From a virus: a DNA stretch of 20,128 nt. The position numbers and the translations under genes are program-made. This document shows, piece by piece, positions 397-20,128 of this stretch (within the stretch, counting starts at the first letter, position 1; every line of letters starts with the position of its first letter). The stretch covers positions 1 through 20,128 of IMG/VR virus record IMGVR_UViG_3300045884_000055. One strand, 5' to 3'. Below the pieces are notes generated by a model. The model did not search any database. It saw nothing but the letters and a program-made list of their open reading frames with translations, and was not told the DNA's origin.

Positions 397-686
397 AGCG
401 CCACAAGCTCGGTCGGCGCGTTCGGTACGCCCACCTCAAGCGTGTGCGGCGCGCTCGGCTCGGACAGTGCGCCCGTGATTAGCTCGCAGCGCAGCGTGCA
501 CCCGTAGCGGCCGGGCTCGAATTCGAGCACCACGGGCGACACGGTGCCCACGTATTGCGCAGCTCGGCCCGAGCACTCCAACAAAAAATCCGCAATCTGT
601 AGCGCGGGCAACGGCGCGCCGCTTTCGTACTCGGTCGGCGCGATGAATTCGAGCCAGACCAACGCGAGCGCGCTAAGTTTCGTCAT
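393..686 (-). CDS. Small fibronectin type III-like protein
   Basis: The protein is about 97 residues from the ATG at 686; a second in-frame ATG at 701 would add five residues. The pattern is Fn3-like: an early hydrophobic strand with tryptophan (LVWLEF), then APTEYESGAPLP, a central VVLEFEPGRYGCTL and a final SEPSAPHTLEVGVPNAP. It resembles short single-domain Fn3 proteins that I know from other phages, where they are thought to act on the virion surface or in carbohydrate contact. The function is not proved for this family. The gene overlaps the TerS-like gene by 14 bp and TerL by an ATGA, so it is translated as part of the packaging operon. There is no clear Shine-Dalgarno sequence, which fits translational coupling. 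It lacks a convincing signal peptide. Fold assignment is by eye. Confidence 0.7.
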   Translation of the reverse strand: MTKLSALALVWLEFIAPTEYESGAPLPALQIADFLLECSGRAAQYVGTVSPVVLEFEPGRYGCTLRCELITGALSEPSAPHTLEVGVPNAPTELVAL

Positions 687-1023
687 TCGCGCGCACGTCA
701 ATGACGGGCCGCATTTCGTCGGCCGTCTGAATGAAAATTTGCACGCCCGTTCCGAGCGCGTTGGCTTCGCGCTCTTTCGGTATGACTTTGAACATGAGGT
801 GATAGAACGCGGCGCGGTGTTTGCGCGCCCATGTCGCGAAACCTTCGTGGCCGCCTAAGTCGTTGTAGACGTACAGCAACCCCTCGCGGACGGCCGCGGT
901 TACCTTGTTCGGGCTCCCCTTAGGCCGGCCAATCGGCAAGCCCGCGGCTTTGCGCGTCGCGTTCGCTCGGCGGAGACGCATGACGGGGCTTTCGCTCGGC
1001 GCGTTGGGGTTTTCATCGCTCAC
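673..1023 (-). CDS. Putative terminase small subunit / packaging-site DNA-binding protein
   Basis: Here I use the GTG at 1023 (about 116 residues); a GTG at 1035 is also in frame. The 1023 start reads GTGAGCGA, the same start context as the 84-residue gene at 14713. The N-terminal part is strongly basic (RLRRANATRKAAGLPIGRPKGSPNK). The GRPKGSPNK motif is typical of small phage DNA-binding proteins, including proteins annotated as small terminases. The remainder (GGHEGFATWARKHRAAFYHL, then KVIPKE) matches the same group of short proteins, which are usually found just upstream of TerL. Here only the Fn3-like gene separates it from TerL. It would recognise the packaging start site and recruit the motor. 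The assignment rests on motif and position, so a general DNA-binding protein remains possible. Confidence 0.68.
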   Translation of the reverse strand: MSDENPNAPSESPVMRLRRANATRKAAGLPIGRPKGSPNKVTAAVREGLLYVYNDLGGHEGFATWARKHRAAFYHLMFKVIPKEREANALGTGVQIFIQTADEMRPVIDVRANDET

Positions 1024-1090
1024 AACCCCAAACACCCGGCTTGGCGGCCCGGAAACCGAGGAATTCCGCGGCCCGAGCGTTGGAGCGCAA

Positions 1091-1128
1091 GGGTGCGGGG
1101 TTCTCCAAGGGGGAGGGAAACCCCACCC
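1091..1128 (-). promoter_or_regulatory. Bulged GC-rich hairpin in the leader of the late operon
   Basis: The arms GGGTGCGGGGTT (1091-1102) and AACCCCACCC (1119-1128) pair over ten base pairs if one C bulges out, leaving a 16-base loop. On the minus-strand transcript this hairpin would precede the TerS-like gene by about 70 bases. It has no U-tract, so a rho-independent terminator is unlikely. It could be an attenuator, an RNA-stability element or part of a packaging site. Confidence 0.4.
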
Positions 1129-1131
1129 GAC

Positions 1132-1180
1132 CTAGCAGCAAAGCCCTAGCAGCCGCGATCTAGGGCCGGGCCATACCTAG
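1132..1180. repeat. CTAG array with 14-bp spacing
   Basis: CTAG occurs at 1132, 1146, 1160 and 1177. The first three are exactly 14 bp apart, and the first two lie in a longer shared word, CCTAGCAGC (1131-1139 and 1145-1153). By base composition one CTAG per roughly 290 bp would be expected, so four in 49 bp is a clear cluster. Its place between the sigma-like gene and the TerS-like gene suggests a protein-binding site array, either an operator/late promoter element or a packaging site. Confidence 0.45.
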
Positions 1181-1188
1181 GTAGCGGG

Positions 1189-1518
1189 TCACTCGCACGC
1201 GTCGCTTTCAGCGGGCGCACCGAGCAATTGCTCATAGCTCGTGAAGCGCCAATTGCCACGCGCATCATGCCGACGCGCAGCGCGTAGCGAGTGCAACACG
1301 TGAAAGCGTGTGCGTTGTAGCAATGCGCCTATGTTGTTGGGCTCGCACAAGTACGGCTTGCGCATGCAATCCAACAACACCAATTGCGCCACGTCCTCGG
1401 GGTCATGCGCACCGTAGCGAGTAGCCGCGCGCAGCACGCACACGCGCAGCGAATCGGTGAGCGCATGCCCGTTAGTGCGCGGGCGGGATTGGCGCGTTCG
1501 CCTCGCTATCGAGTGCAC
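1189..1518 (-). CDS. Sigma-70 region 2-like small protein, candidate late-gene regulator
   Basis: The start is uncertain: no ATG is present, and I use the in-frame GTG at 1518 (about 109 residues, overlapping the upstream gene by 47 bp). The core reads RVCVLRAATRYGAHDPEDVAQLVLLDC followed by a spacer and LLQRTRFHVLHSLRAARRHD. This is the layout of sigma-70 region 2: a first helix ending in a Tyr-Gly, the D-P-E-D-V/A-x-[QD] core-binding helix, and a helix ending in a basic L-R-A-A-R-R run where ECF sigmas have their -10-binding residues. Only about 20 residues follow, so there is no room for a region 4 helix-turn-helix. It is the last early gene before the late operon, which makes a role in late transcription attractive. 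Alternatives are an unrelated small helical protein or a sigma-mimic/anti-host factor. The call rests on pattern reading only. Confidence 0.5.
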   Translation of the reverse strand: MHSIARRTRQSRPRTNGHALTDSLRVCVLRAATRYGAHDPEDVAQLVLLDCMRKPYLCEPNNIGALLQRTRFHVLHSLRAARRHDARGNWRFTSYEQLLGAPAESDACE

Positions 1519-1660
1519 GCATGCAAAGCGCAAAACCTTCGAGCAACGCGTACAGCTTTGTGATTGCGGTATCAAGCTCGGCTCGCTTGGCTAGCAATTG
1601 CAGCAATTCGCCCGTGATCCTATCGCGCTCACCCTCAACGGTTACACGTGAAACATTCAT
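1472..1660 (-). CDS. Small hypothetical protein, probable coiled coil
   Basis: The protein has 62 residues from an ATG at 1660 that overlaps the upstream stop as ATGA, which supports both starts and coupling. Residues 8-45 (EGERDRITGELLQLLAKRAE and the following LDTAITKLYALLEGF) have regular leucine/isoleucine spacing typical of an amphipathic helix or short coiled coil. The tail after residue 46 looks unstructured (EANAPIPPAH). I do not recognise a family. Its position in the early run, next to the sigma-like protein, suggests a partner or regulatory role, but nothing in the sequence proves this. Confidence 0.65.
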   Translation of the reverse strand: MNVSRVTVEGERDRITGELLQLLAKRAELDTAITKLYALLEGFALCMRALDSEANAPIPPAH

Positions 1661-2108: not shown

Positions 2109-2516
2109 CTAGAGCGGCGCGAGATACCCGCGCCGGCAGAGGTGCGTCATGGCCGAGCTTGCGCCCGAGCCGTGCTCGCGTTGCATGGCGCTTGAGCCCT
2201 CGCCTTTGCGGAACGGTGCGGCACCATACTTGGCGCGCAGCGAATCCAACACGGTGCGCTCGTACTTCGGCAACGGCGCGTCGGGCTTGGTCGTGCAATG
2301 AATCATTAGCCGCGGGCCGAATTCGTTGTGTCGGTGCGTGCCGTTCACTTTGGACTTAGCGTTGCGCTCGCTCGGGTCACGGCGCGCGCTCCACGCGCTC
2401 GGGCCGTTGCTTACGTCGAGCATGGAAAATGAAACGCTATGGGCGGCAAGAATCTGAATAAATGCCGCCATATCGCGTTCGGTCATTTCAACCTCGGCCG
2501 TGAATCGCTTTCGCAT
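2109..2516 (-). CDS. Hypothetical protein downstream of the candidate origin
   Basis: The protein has 135 residues from an ATG at 2516 with a clear AGGAG eight bases upstream. The first 40 residues (EVEMTERDMAAFIQILAAHS, then VSFSMLDVSNG) look like a small alpha-beta domain. The middle has SARRDPSERNAKSKVNGTHR, and a later helical stretch (RTVLDSLRAKYGAAPFRKGE) is basic. I do not recognise a family. It is the first gene after the AT-rich stretch at 2540-2572 and probably starts a translational block in the early operon. A replication-accessory or regulatory role is possible from position only. The C-terminal 25 residues are low in obvious structure. Confidence 0.6.
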   Translation of the reverse strand: MRKRFTAEVEMTERDMAAFIQILAAHSVSFSMLDVSNGPSAWSARRDPSERNAKSKVNGTHRHNEFGPRLMIHCTTKPDAPLPKYERTVLDSLRAKYGAAPFRKGEGSSAMQREHGSGASSAMTHLCRRGYLAPL

Positions 2517-2531
2517 GGGGGCGTGCTCCTA

Positions 2532-2673
2532 TTTGTGATTGCTCTTAGATATACATATAAGACTCAAGAGGCAGGGCGCACGTAGGCCCTACGTTGGGAC
2601 TCGGTATGCCCTGCATTCGGGCGCACGTGTGCCCTACTCTTTTCGCGAGTGTAGGACTGCATGTTGGCCCTAC
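2532..2673. other. Candidate replication origin: iteron-like repeats plus AT-rich stretch
   Basis: GCCCTAC or GCCCTGC recurs at 2586, 2608, 2631 and 2667, spaced 22, 23 and 36 bp. Two copies extend to a 19-bp unit, GGGCGCACGTGTGCCCTAC (2619-2637), matched at 17 of 19 positions at 2574-2592; a third, weaker copy is at 2655-2673 (13 of 19). Directly beside them, 2532-2572 is an AT-rich segment (including TTAGATATACATATAAGA) that stands out in this GC-rich genome. Iterons in the 3' part of a replication-initiator gene next to an easily melted region are the arrangement known from lambda O. The origin function here is an inference. Confidence 0.5.
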
Positions 2674-3055
2674 ATTCCCGCATATCGCGCCACATGCCTT
2701 TGTGTGTTGCGCACGCGGCTTGAAGCTCGGGCGGTACGGGTGCACGCAAACGATAGGTAACGGCTCGGCCGGCATGCGCACGCGGGCCGATGCGCTCTAG
2801 CCAACCGAGGTGCACGAGCCGTGCAACGTAGCGGCGCACGGTGCGCGGTGTGATGCCCACAAGCTCGGCCAACAATGCGTGCGACGGTGTGCACGTGACC
2901 GCGGCGCCGTCGCCCTTGGCTAGCTCGGCAATCCACAACGCAACCGGCCAAACGGCACCGCGCGGCCCGTCGAGCATGTAAAGCCGACGCCATTGCCCAA
3001 CGTGTTTGCGGCCGATGCGCCACGCCGCGCCCGTATCGTGTCCGTTCCCGCGCAC
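2564..3055 (-). CDS. Winged-helix DNA-binding protein, candidate replication initiator
   Basis: The protein has 163 residues from a GTG at 3055. Residues about 58-104 (PSHALLAELVGITPRTVRRY, then VARLVHLGWLERIG and a basic beta wing) form a clear winged helix-turn-helix of the type found in phage replication and regulatory proteins. The upstream part (residues 18-50, VGQWRRLYMLDG...PVALWIAELAKGDG) matches the helical lead-in of this kind of domain. The last 35 residues repeat RAxVRP-type peptides (RAHVRPNAGH, RRAYVRPAS) because the DNA there consists of iteron-like repeats. The pairing of a DNA-binding protein with iterons in its own gene is the lambda O pattern, so I infer a replication initiator. 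A repressor or other regulator is the main alternative. It follows the excisionase-like gene by nine bases, without its own promoter. Confidence 0.65.
   Translation of the reverse strand: MRGNGHDTGAAWRIGRKHVGQWRRLYMLDGPRGAVWPVALWIAELAKGDGAAVTCTPSHALLAELVGITPRTVRRYVARLVHLGWLERIGPRAHAGRAVTYRLRAPVPPELQAACATHKGMWRDMRECRANMQSYTREKSRAHVRPNAGHTESQRRAYVRPAS
3028..3049 (-). repeat. Inverted copy of a 22-bp gene-start motif
   Basis: Read on the minus strand, this segment begins GGGAACGGACACGA and ends CGGGCG. It matches 5421-5442 on the plus strand at 20 of 22 positions. In both places it encodes the start of a protein (GNGHDTG here, GNGHDAG there). It could be a shared regulatory site or a trace of recombination between two DNA-binding genes. 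Confidence 0.5.
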
Positions 3056-3064
3056 GGGTCACGG

Positions 3065-3289
3065 TTACTCGGCGCGGTTGGCGTTGAGAATGTCGCGCCC
3101 GCTCACCCGAGCACGCGCGCCACGCTTTTTGATTCGAATGAGCCCCTCATTGCGCATCTTGTAGAGCGTTTGGCGCGAGCAACACAACATCGCGCACGCT
3201 TCGAGCAACGTGTAATCCTGGTTGATATCGAGCATTGCGGGCCGAACGGTGTGCAGCTCGGAAACCCGGAGACGTGGTGCGCGTGCCAT
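3065..3289 (-). CDS. Excisionase-like helix-turn-helix protein
   Basis: The protein has 74 residues. The ATG at 3289 has a strong AAGGGG six bases upstream, which decides this start over the internal ATG at 3235. Residues 26-70 (YTLLEACAMLCCSRQTLYKM, then RNEGLIRIKKRG...VSGRDILNANR) are a MerR/excisionase-type winged helix: the helix-turn-helix, then a basic wing and a final S-x-x-D-I-L helix as in HTH_17 proteins. It is the first gene after the integrase terminator, transcribed from a good promoter at 3366-3338, and may act as the recombination directionality factor or as a control protein of the early operon. A second HTH protein of this type is encoded at 6299-6496, so which one is the true excisionase is open. 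Confidence 0.72.
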   Translation of the reverse strand: MARAPRLRVSELHTVRPAMLDINQDYTLLEACAMLCCSRQTLYKMRNEGLIRIKKRGARARVSGRDILNANRAE

Positions 3290-3337
3290 GTTGTGCCCCT
3301 TGGTTTTTGCGCGCCGTCATTGCGACGGGGGGACACG

Positions 3338-3366
3338 TTTATATGCCTCACAAAATCCCAAGGCAA
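3338..3366 (-). promoter_or_regulatory. Sigma-70-type promoter for the early operon
   Basis: On the minus strand, TTGCCT (3366-3361) and TATAAA (3343-3338) are separated by exactly 17 bases. The -35 box sits in the last bases of the integrase terminator region, and transcription would start near 3331, about 40 bases before the ATG of the excisionase-like gene. This is the best-looking promoter in the window. The stretch just downstream (GTGTCCCCCCGTCGC on the minus strand) could hold an operator. Confidence 0.68.
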
Positions 3367-3395
3367 AAAAAACCCCCCGTGGTGTCACGGGGGGT
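3365..3395 (-). terminator. Intrinsic terminator after the integrase gene
   Basis: ACCCCCCGTG (3372-3381) and CACGGGGGGT (3386-3395) form a perfect ten-base-pair stem with a four-base loop. On the minus-strand transcript the stem is followed by a run of eight U residues (plus-strand A3365-A3372). It ends the transcript of the membrane protein and integrase 16 bp after the integrase stop and so separates this unit from the early operon. Confidence 0.9.
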
Positions 3396-3410
3396 CAATA
3401 GCTGTAACTT

Positions 3411-4580
3411 TCATCCCACGCTAGCTAGACGTTTGCGCAAATCGGAATCCATGAGGCGGAAGTAATGCTTTTCTATGATTTGCACGGACGTTCCGTGTTG
3501 TTTAGCAACCGTCATGGCATCGAAGCCGTGCAACTGAATCGCCTCGGATATGTGCGCGTGCCGGAACGAGTAGGCGCGCACCGTGCGCGGCAAGTCGGTG
3601 CCGGCCGCACGCGCGGCTTTGACCGCGGCGCGGAAATGATCCGCCCAACCCGCACGCAACCAACGCTTGCCGCACCATGACGGGAACAACAACGCGAGGC
3701 CGATCTTGCCCGCGGCGGCTTCCGCGAATAGCGCGCGGCCTTTCGGGCCTAGCACTACGTCGCGCTCGCGCAGCTCACCTTTGCCTTTGCGATGGCTCAG
3801 CCGCACCGTGCCGCGCTCGCGGTTGTAGTCGGCAACCGTCGCCTTGCAAAGCTCGTGCGGGCGCGCGCCCGTCAAATCCAAGGCGCGCAGCAACAACGCG
3901 AGCGAGGGCGACGCGTGCGCGATGATTGCGGCGCGTTGTGCCGGGCTCAACAAGTCCGTGTGCATGGTCGTGGCACCCGTGTTGAGCGGCTCCAAATCCC
4001 ACGCCGCGAACGCGCCCGCGAAGCCGAGCCGCAACGCGCGGCGCACGCACGTTTTGGCACGCTTCACGTAGTCATTGACGGTTTGCGGCTTGAGCGAGCG
4101 CCCTTTCTTGCCGGCTTGCAACCGCTCGCGCCACGCTTGCACGTCCTCGCGCGTCACGGACTCAAACGGCATATCCGCCAGCGGGTCATTGCCGAGTGTC
4201 CAACGGAAAGCCGCGTCTTTCGTGGCGGCCGTGTCGGCGCGGTTGAGTTTGCGCAATTGCTCGTTGCCGGCCAAGAACGCGTCGCGCACCGTGCCGCGCA
4301 GCACCGTGCGCACCCCGACCGAGCCGAGCGTGTCTAGCCACGCGTCAACCACGCGGCGCGCCGCGTCATAGCTCGTTGCCGTGTCCCCGAGCGTGTCTAG
4401 CACGGGGTCCGGGCACCGCATCGGCTTGCCGCCGCTCGGGATGAAACGGCCGCGCCAGCTCGCGCCGAGCTTACCCTTGTAGAAACCCAAGGCGCCGCCC
4501 TTGCGCAGCCGTTCCCAATGTGGCTCATCGCGCGTCGCGAGGCGGGCGCGGTCGGCTACCGTCTTAATTGGCTTGCTCAT
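3411..4580 (-). CDS. int: Tyrosine-type site-specific integrase
   Basis: The protein has 389 residues and catalyses integration of the phage DNA into the host chromosome and, with an excisionase, its release. The N-terminal part carries a core-binding domain (about residues 90-190, including PFESVTREDVQAWRERLQAG). The catalytic domain has the conserved arginine in LTGARPHEL (R240), lysines in SHRKGKGEL (264/266), R340 and H341 in AYSFRHAHIS, the late histidine H362 (KQHGTS) and the nucleophile Y373 in EKHYFR. The first histidine of the usual H-x-x-R motif is a tyrosine (Y337), a tolerated variant in this family. The ATG directly follows the TAA of the small membrane protein gene, so both are co-transcribed. 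A terminator follows. It establishes the phage as temperate, unless the gene is inactive. Confidence 0.95.
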   Translation of the reverse strand: MSKPIKTVADRARLATRDEPHWERLRKGGALGFYKGKLGASWRGRFIPSGGKPMRCPDPVLDTLGDTATSYDAARRVVDAWLDTLGSVGVRTVLRGTVRDAFLAGNEQLRKLNRADTAATKDAAFRWTLGNDPLADMPFESVTREDVQAWRERLQAGKKGRSLKPQTVNDYVKRAKTCVRRALRLGFAGAFAAWDLEPLNTGATTMHTDLLSPAQRAAIIAHASPSLALLLRALDLTGARPHELCKATVADYNRERGTVRLSHRKGKGELRERDVVLGPKGRALFAEAAAGKIGLALLFPSWCGKRWLRAGWADHFRAAVKAARAAGTDLPRTVRAYSFRHAHISEAIQLHGFDAMTVAKQHGTSVQIIEKHYFRLMDSDLRKRLASVG

Positions 4581-18991: not shown

Positions 18992-20128
18992 TTGCCGTTG
19001 TCGGTGCGCGCGGCCCCCAACCGGCAAGGCCGATTTCACCGTGCCGGTAGACGAATAAATATCGGGCCGCGTCGGCATAGTGCGATTCCCAGGAGTGATA
19101 CGGATTCCTGCTGAATACACCCGGACGTTTCAAAAGTTTTTCGGTGCGGTAGCCCGCGAGTGCCTCAAGCAACATCGAATTGTTTTCTTTGCCGTGGGTC
19201 CACGGGCGCGGGGTTGTGTCCACGTAAGTCGTCGGCAAGCTCTGTTGCACGAGCGCAATTTCCGCGTGCAACGTGCCTTGACCCTTGCGCAACACTTCGA
19301 TTTCGTCAGCGAGCTTGAACGCTTCAAACGCCGACGCCCACGTATCGCCCGCGGGGCCGGGCCGCCGCGCATCGTGCGGCAACGCCGCCGTTTGTATGCA
19401 CTTGCCCCACGGGTAACGCTCGCGGATTTCGCGCGCGATATCGGGCGCGGGCGTGAACTGCCACGCTTGCGAGCCGAGTATCACGGTTCGCTTGGGCTCG
19501 AACGCCTGAAAGAAAATCGCTACGGTGTGATCGGCAAAGCCGATATCAAAGGCCGCGTAAACGGGCGCGCTCGGATCGTATGGGAAGTCCCCCATGCGCT
19601 TTGCGGCTTTCATCTCCGCAATTTGCTGCGAGTAATACGCGCCCGAAAACGCGGCGGTTGTGTCCAAAAAGAATTCTTGCCGCACCATTGCGTCCGACAT
19701 TCCCGCGCGTTTTTCCGCGTCAATGTCGTGTTGCGAAATCAGCGGCGCGCCGTCCCATTCTTTGGTCTGCGAAACGTCAAGGTGCACGCAATACCATTCG
19801 GGGTTGTTCTTGTTGGTGTGATACAGGTCGTAAAAGTGATTGCGTCCGCGAAACGTCGAAATCGCGAACATCCATGCCGCGGTGTTTTCCGCGAGCACGG
19901 GCCGCAAGTAGTCGAGCACCTCGGAGTCTGGATATAGCGCGCACTCATCGAGCACGATGCCGCGAAAGTTGGTGCCGACGAGCGCGCTCGGGTTATCGGC
20001 GCCGAGTAGTTGCCACGTCGAGCCGTTCAGAAATTCCACAATCATTTCGTTGTCACGCGTCGTGCGCCGCAACGCGGGTGGAAACACGCGATCCATGAAA
20101 CGGCGCCCGAGCTTGTCCACCCCGCGCC
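18951..20128 (-). CDS. terL: Terminase large subunit, C-terminal part (continues from position 1)
   Basis: Together with 396..1 this makes a protein of about 465 residues. In full-length numbering the Walker B motif GIVLDE is at about 130-135, with the catalytic glutamate, and the coupling motif AISTFRG at about 162-168. The nuclease domain has the acidic triad of terminases: D268 in VYAAFDIGFADHT, D326 in ALPHDARRPG and D426 in SHYADAARYLF. These cut the concatemer during headful-type packaging. The stop (18953-18951) lies inside the small TM gene. The last part, after residue 440, is short and likely flexible. All catalytic residues are present, so the protein should be active. Confidence 0.93.
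   Translation of the reverse strand, partial: RGVDKLGRRFMDRVFPPALRRTTRDNEMIVEFLNGSTWQLLGADNPSALVGTNFRGIVLDECALYPDSEVLDYLRPVLAENTAAWMFAISTFRGRNHFYDLYHTNKNNPEWYCVHLDVSQTKEWDGAPLISQHDIDAEKRAGMSDAMVRQEFFLDTTAAFSGAYYSQQIAEMKAAKRMGDFPYDPSAPVYAAFDIGFADHTVAIFFQAFEPKRTVILGSQAWQFTPAPDIAREIRERYPWGKCIQTAALPHDARRPGPAGDTWASAFEAFKLADEIEVLRKGQGTLHAEIALVQQSLPTTYVDTTPRPWTHGKENNSMLLEALAGYRTEKLLKRPGVFSRNPYHSWESHYADAARYLFVYRHGEIGLAGWGPRAPTTANDIANGWGRRARS
19953..20128. repeat. Terminal direct repeat, right copy (circular-assembly overlap)
   Basis: Repeats positions 1-176 with two differences (20079 and 20082). Both fall in the third position of terminase codons and leave the amino acids (P and F) unchanged, which looks like natural strain variation more than random sequencing error. 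Confidence 0.9.

Follow-up and report, generated by a model that had tools for sequence, protein, structure and literature searches.

Sigma factors without region 4 are already known from phages as well as bacteria. The podovirus phiEco32 encodes gp36, a middle/late sigma factor that shows no homology to region 4 and works from single-element promoters (PMC8948821), and gp55 of phage T4 serves late genes with a sigma region 2 homology domain, likewise without region 4, to which a helix-loop-helix and a sliding-clamp-binding tail are added (PMC7892883). RsoA of Bacillus subtilis is a 9.0-kDa protein that consists of sigma-2 only (PMC10141391; PMC8103513) and needs SigO as its sigma-4 partner. 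Here we describe a 109-residue open reading frame (ORF) on the minus strand of IMG/VR virus record IMGVR_UViG_3300045884_000055 (20,128 bases; the window analyzed here spans the whole record) that weakly resembles region 2 of sigma-70 factors and is not followed by a region 4. The resemblance is in register, and no other family tested comes as close. Our favored though tentative explanation, to which we give somewhat less than an even chance, is that the ORF encodes a sigma-70 region 2 of ECF-like type, strongly diverged, that stands alone and acts as a late switch.

Among the described systems, phiEco32 gp36 and RsoA are closer parallels to this candidate than T4 gp55. Like gp36, it would be a phage-encoded sigma-like protein in which region 4 is absent; however, the function of gp36 has been shown experimentally, whereas the candidate is known from its sequence and no sequence link to gp36 was found. 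With RsoA it would share the form of a small natural protein carrying only sigma-2, but no sigma-4 partner was identified here. T4 gp55, which an earlier, sequence-only reading of this locus had taken as its model, is a poor one because of its additional helix-loop-helix and clamp-binding tail, whereas the candidate ends about 26 residues after region 2. Neither of the two AlphaFold models described below has a long helix after region 2 that could correspond to the helix-loop-helix of gp55, and no clear clamp motif of the gp55 type is visible by eye in the tail (...SYEQLLGAPAESDACE), with no dedicated clamp search having been made in the window. By profile comparison the candidate is most similar, and in register over region 2, to ECF (group IV) sigma factors; these combine regions 2 and 4 in one protein, whereas the candidate has no region 4 and stays below all curated cut-offs.

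Similarity to sigma-70 region 2

Among the 18,950 families of NCBIfam, the sole match of the 109-residue ORF is the sigma-70 factor family TIGR02989 (E = 0.033), and this match covers model positions 24-75, i.e., the positions of region 2; a 128-residue version of the ORF gives one further, weaker match (E = 0.094). When TIGR02989 was searched against the 20-kb record alone, it matched at the candidate only (E = 0.0017). A profile of ECF region 2 built from 39 sequences out of 13 proteobacterial genomes scores 10.0 bits with the candidate, a value reached by 6 of the 4,794 scored shuffles (about 1 in 800; HMMER), and the candidate is the best of the 31 proteins of the window, the next one scoring 1.9 bits. 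It again comes out top among the window proteins when aligned to ECF region 2 by hhalign, which with the single sequence gives P = 2.6e-4 and a score of 24.2, compared with no more than 17.8 in all 300 shuffles. This above-chance similarity runs in register over regions 2.2 to 2.4, and the protein can be laid out along region 2 as follows:

1189..1518, minus strand: candidate stand-alone sigma region 2 protein, 109-residue ORF (ORF, starts, codon score, region 2 similarity)
1414..1461, minus strand: helix at the position of sigma region 2.1, LTDSLRVCVLRAATRY, residues 20-35 (helix in both AlphaFold models; aligned with ECF sequences)
1357..1404, minus strand: region 2.2-like helix DPEDVAQLVLLDCMRK, residues 39-54, with D42 and Q45 (ECF profile, hhalign, alignment)
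1270..1338, minus strand: region 2.3/2.4-like helix NNIGALLQRTRFHVLHSLRAARR, residues 61-83 (ECF profile, alignment, ECF-guided AlphaFold model)
1192..1269, minus strand: short tail HDARGNWRFTSYEQLLGAPAESDACE, residues 84-109, no region 4 (ORF end; downstream frames; PF04545/PF08281 searches)

The D and the Q of region 2.2 are the only two near-invariant positions in the ECF alignment, and both are kept in the candidate as D42 and Q45. The two strings in which the sequence-only reading had seen a region 2 layout, ATRYGAHDPEDVAQLVLLDC (residues 32-51) and LLQRTRFHVLHSLRAARRHD (residues 66-85), are both present in this minus-strand ORF. Its view of the layout holds insofar as the profile match lies in the right register and beats shuffled sequences, while the signal is weak and not significant library-wide.

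The protein had also been read as ending before any region 4, and this is what we find. About 26 residues remain after the region-2-like part, no hidden or frameshifted region 4 was found in the downstream frames, and Sigma70_r4 (PF04545) has no match in the genome. Sigma70_r4_2 (PF08281) gives a single partial and weak match (E = 0.0016 for the genome) that lies inside a winged-helix gene at 3055-2564. We found a region 4 neither fused to the candidate nor hidden downstream nor encoded elsewhere in the window. A separate phage or host protein could still provide the -35 and flap contacts, so that the candidate and this partner would together make up a two-subunit sigma factor, as RsoA and SigO do. 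Split sigma-2 and sigma-4 proteins do exist (PMC8103513), and the phage carries several small helix-turn-helix genes including the one at 3055-2564. However, the Sigma70_r4_2 match in that gene is confined to the recognition helix in a winged helix that matches better elsewhere, and together with the missing Sigma70_r4 match this makes a two-subunit factor very improbable.

The setting of the ORF agrees with what had been noted from the sequence. The candidate is the last gene on its strand before a gap of 153 nucleotides, beyond which lie the TerS-like ORF (1035-673) and the packaging genes. These features can be given as follows:

673..1035, minus strand: TerS-like gene, first of the presumed late operon (tblastn)
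1036..1188, strand not given: gap between the candidate and the TerS-like gene, 153 nucleotides, 31% AT
1131..1180, strand not given: CTAG cluster, candidate protein-binding site (site simulation)

Fold predictions and alternative explanations

Several observations weigh against a sigma factor. With 14.1 bits, the TIGR02989 match falls far short of the cut-off set for that family (124.55), Pfam Sigma70_r2 (PF04542) does not match the candidate at E 10, and neither this profile nor any NCBIfam sigma family takes it in above a curated cut-off; searches of Pfam and PHROGs returned no match to any family. One of 10 shuffled copies reached a similar E-value in NCBIfam (with a urease), and none did so with a sigma family. 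The value of 0.033 is therefore unremarkable, and the sigma similarity is not significant in the library-wide search alone; what is remarkable is the identity of the family and the register of the match. Against three narrow ECF subgroups, hhalign rises above the shuffles for one and stays at noise for the other two. Within the region-2-like part, L46 stands in place of the acidic residue that follows the Q of region 2.2, and the tryptophan common in region 2.3 is missing. At the level of the gene, the first in-frame ATG lies only mid-domain, no good Shine-Dalgarno sequence or other clear ribosome-binding site was found for the GTG start, and no homolog was detected in viral and GTDB genome scans. 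The gap that follows, put forward as late promoter, is GC-rich (31% AT compared with 39% for the window), and a scan of its coding strand found no sigma-70-type promoter.

Fold predictions add to these points. A profile search and a fold check had been set beforehand as the test of the proposal, and its outcome is divided: the profile match is there but weak, the neutral fold looks winged-helix-like, and a region 2 core appears only when an ECF alignment is supplied. From the single sequence, AlphaFold predicts three helices and a small hairpin at low confidence (predicted local distance difference test, pLDDT, of 52). The chains listed as structural neighbors of this model are largely winged-helix domains, and no sigma factor is among the matches listed from its comparison by Foldseek and VIA, but such a poor model is too weak to count for or against either fold. 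With 32 ECF region-2 sequences as the alignment, AlphaFold predicts the helical arrangement of region 2 (pLDDT 78, about 90 over the helices), and the structural matches are led by sigma-E and other ECF region-2 domains (Z 6-8). Since an ECF alignment imposes its family, this second model indicates only that sequence and fold are compatible; it is biased and not independent support.

The winged-helix-like shape of the single-sequence model is also what would be expected if the likeness to region 2 had arisen by chance and the ORF encoded a small helical protein unrelated to sigma factors, with a DNA-binding or regulatory role (e.g., a winged helix), that is, an ordinary repressor or activator. 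This explanation is almost as likely as a diverged region 2. The spacing of I...V...L in NNIGALLQRTRFHVLHSLRAARRHDARGNWRFT would also suit a helix-turn-helix plus wing, and no homologs back a sigma factor. However, a generic winged-helix profile scores only 0.2 bits with the candidate and is equalled by 1,075 of the 4,106 scored shuffles, and none of the many helix-turn-helix families held in Pfam, PHROGs and NCBIfam matches it.

The residues lost in regions 2.2 and 2.3, together with a region 2 likeness without region 4, could alternatively point to a mimic of sigma region 2 that directs no transcription itself and instead interferes with host transcription by binding RNA polymerase or an anti-sigma factor of the host. 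PhyR, with a degenerate sigma-like domain that acts in this way on NepR, provides a precedent. The promoter and core contacts of the sigma-like domain of PhyR are known to be degenerate (PMC8103513). Nothing in our data separates such a mimic from a true sigma factor, but the position before the late operon favors a role in late gene expression, and we regard mimicry as improbable.

Gene call, relatives and genome setting

The ORF is probably a real gene, though this is not certain. It starts with the GTG at 1518 and stops at 1189, and alternative in-frame starts are found at TTG 1575 (which yields the 128-residue version), TTG 1533, GTG 1443 and GTG 1437. Neither strand offers a competing ORF of at least 60 residues for 1189-1471, and the ORFs around the candidate tile head-to-tail. 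A weak point of the gene call is an overlap of 47 nucleotides with its upstream neighbor:

1472..1660, minus strand: 62-residue ORF adjoining the candidate upstream (ORF list, codon score)

For codon scoring of all six frames, a model was trained on clear genes of the phage itself, and over the part outside the overlap the frame of the candidate has the best score of the six (0.147). With this value the candidate falls short of the clear structural and recombination genes, whose 5th percentile is 0.277, and resembles the small neighboring early genes. A modest codon score of this kind would agree with a non-functional sequence, either a chance open frame or the remnant of a decayed ECF sigma gene, and the same can be said of the upstream overlap, the GTG start without a clear ribosome-binding site, the absence of homologs and the truncation directly after region 2. 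Given the best frame of six, a score like that of the neighboring early genes and the head-to-tail tiling with no other ORF of at least 60 residues in this stretch, we hold this explanation to be quite improbable.

Homolog searches reached well beyond the window. A scan of 398 genomes of one phylum with the candidate gave best matches that look like chance, tblastn of phages and plasmids found no homolog, a degenerate DNA pattern for the candidate found nothing in viral contigs, and a sequence search of the PDB returned malate dehydrogenase only (E about 0.5). Two individual matches were rejected: one in a Microcoleus phage sits at the start of a nuclease-like ORF and partly upstream of its annotated start, and one in Streptomyces phage Coruscant is antisense to a sigma gene. 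With no homolog found, there is neither a conservation argument nor a natural alignment for the candidate.

Searches with the terminase, portal and capsid of the window phage brought to light a family of small relatives (L275-L325), many of them contigs of 17-19 kb, in which portal, scaffold and capsid are conserved. None of the ORFs of the relatives found in this way is a homolog of the candidate. The closest relative, L275, shares 78% identity with the window phage in portal and capsid, but its sequence ends just before the portal and is therefore uninformative on conservation of the candidate. The portal of L285/L297 is only about 45% identical to that of the window phage. In the more distant relatives examined the candidate gene is absent, and the same is true of the approximately 3 kb before the terminase of L298. 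In L285, the terminase large subunit (2253-3544) is spread over two frames that overlap (2253-2969 and 2966-3544), owing to either a frameshift or an assembly error. Another relative sharing capsid and terminase, L305, encodes a B-family DNA polymerase at 921-2714 (PF03175, E 4.9e-17); the genes identified in the window instead include an integrase, YqaJ and ERF but no DNA polymerase.

The first and last 176 bases of the record (1-176 and 19953-20128) are near-identical, with two mismatches at 127 and 130, and the record is therefore close to a complete circularised genome; an exact terminal repeat was sought in the record and not found. An integrase, a YqaJ exonuclease and an ERF protein are encoded, and the phage therefore looks temperate. 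Directly after the integrase gene, a strong terminator-like hairpin with a T run (3371-3396, minus strand) sets this gene apart from the operon that ends in the candidate sigma gene.

On the other side of the gap, the late genes seem to form one operon. In Bradyrhizobium and Sulfitobacter phages, the tblastn match of the TerS-like gene is the small gene that immediately precedes the one for the terminase large subunit. A scan of the coding strand of the gap found no terminator, and its RNA folding is ordinary (z = -0.83). Four CTAG sites lie in the gap at 1132, 1146, 1160 and 1177 (spacing of 14, 14 and 17 nucleotides), and the direct repeat CCTAGCAGC falls within this cluster at 1131-1139 and 1145-1153. 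None of 300 simulated sequences had four CTAG in 50 bp, and the cluster is a possible protein-binding site, be it for TerS, for packaging or as the operator of a regulator.

The place of the candidate also has a counterpart in Bradyrhizobium phage ppBjS10J-1 (L003), where a NusG-domain protein (2638-3270; PF02357, E = 3.2e-12) is encoded two genes before the TerS-like gene. In both phages a candidate transcription regulator thus lies close upstream of related TerS genes, and such a regulator therefore fits this place, though of another type: the NusG-domain protein has an unrelated fold and would act on elongation, not initiation. In the Sulfitobacter phage (L004), the protein encoded at 2476-3003 is by eye like the NusG-domain protein of L003 and has no Pfam match.

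Proposed role of the candidate

As a diverged region 2 standing alone, the protein would most likely be the last product of the early lytic operon. Its region 2.2-like helix (D42, Q45) would attach it to the beta' clamp helices of RNA polymerase from the host, and by way of a single -10-like element it would direct this enzyme to one late promoter of the phage or to a few, similar to the single-element steering of phiEco32 gp36 and T4 gp55. We infer that the protein is expressed, folds as region 2, binds RNA polymerase, recognizes a promoter and acts as a late switch, and we see in the weak sequence signal of this orphan protein a plausible and testable lead, not a result. What the sequence-only reading had observed is partly confirmed, and its interpretation is partly supported. 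The boldest form of the proposal seems unlikely, namely that a bare region 2 of about 85-109 residues, with neither region 4 nor clamp-binding tail nor partner, by itself provides all of the late promoter specificity in a temperate phage of 20 kb.

If a stand-alone region 2 does act here, it would be among the smallest proteins that give RNA polymerase promoter specificity, and a very small new variant of the sigma factors without region 4. A 20-kb temperate phage could then swap the usual antiterminator or activator for a bare sigma region 2, which would help to ask how little of a sigma factor suffices for promoter opening.
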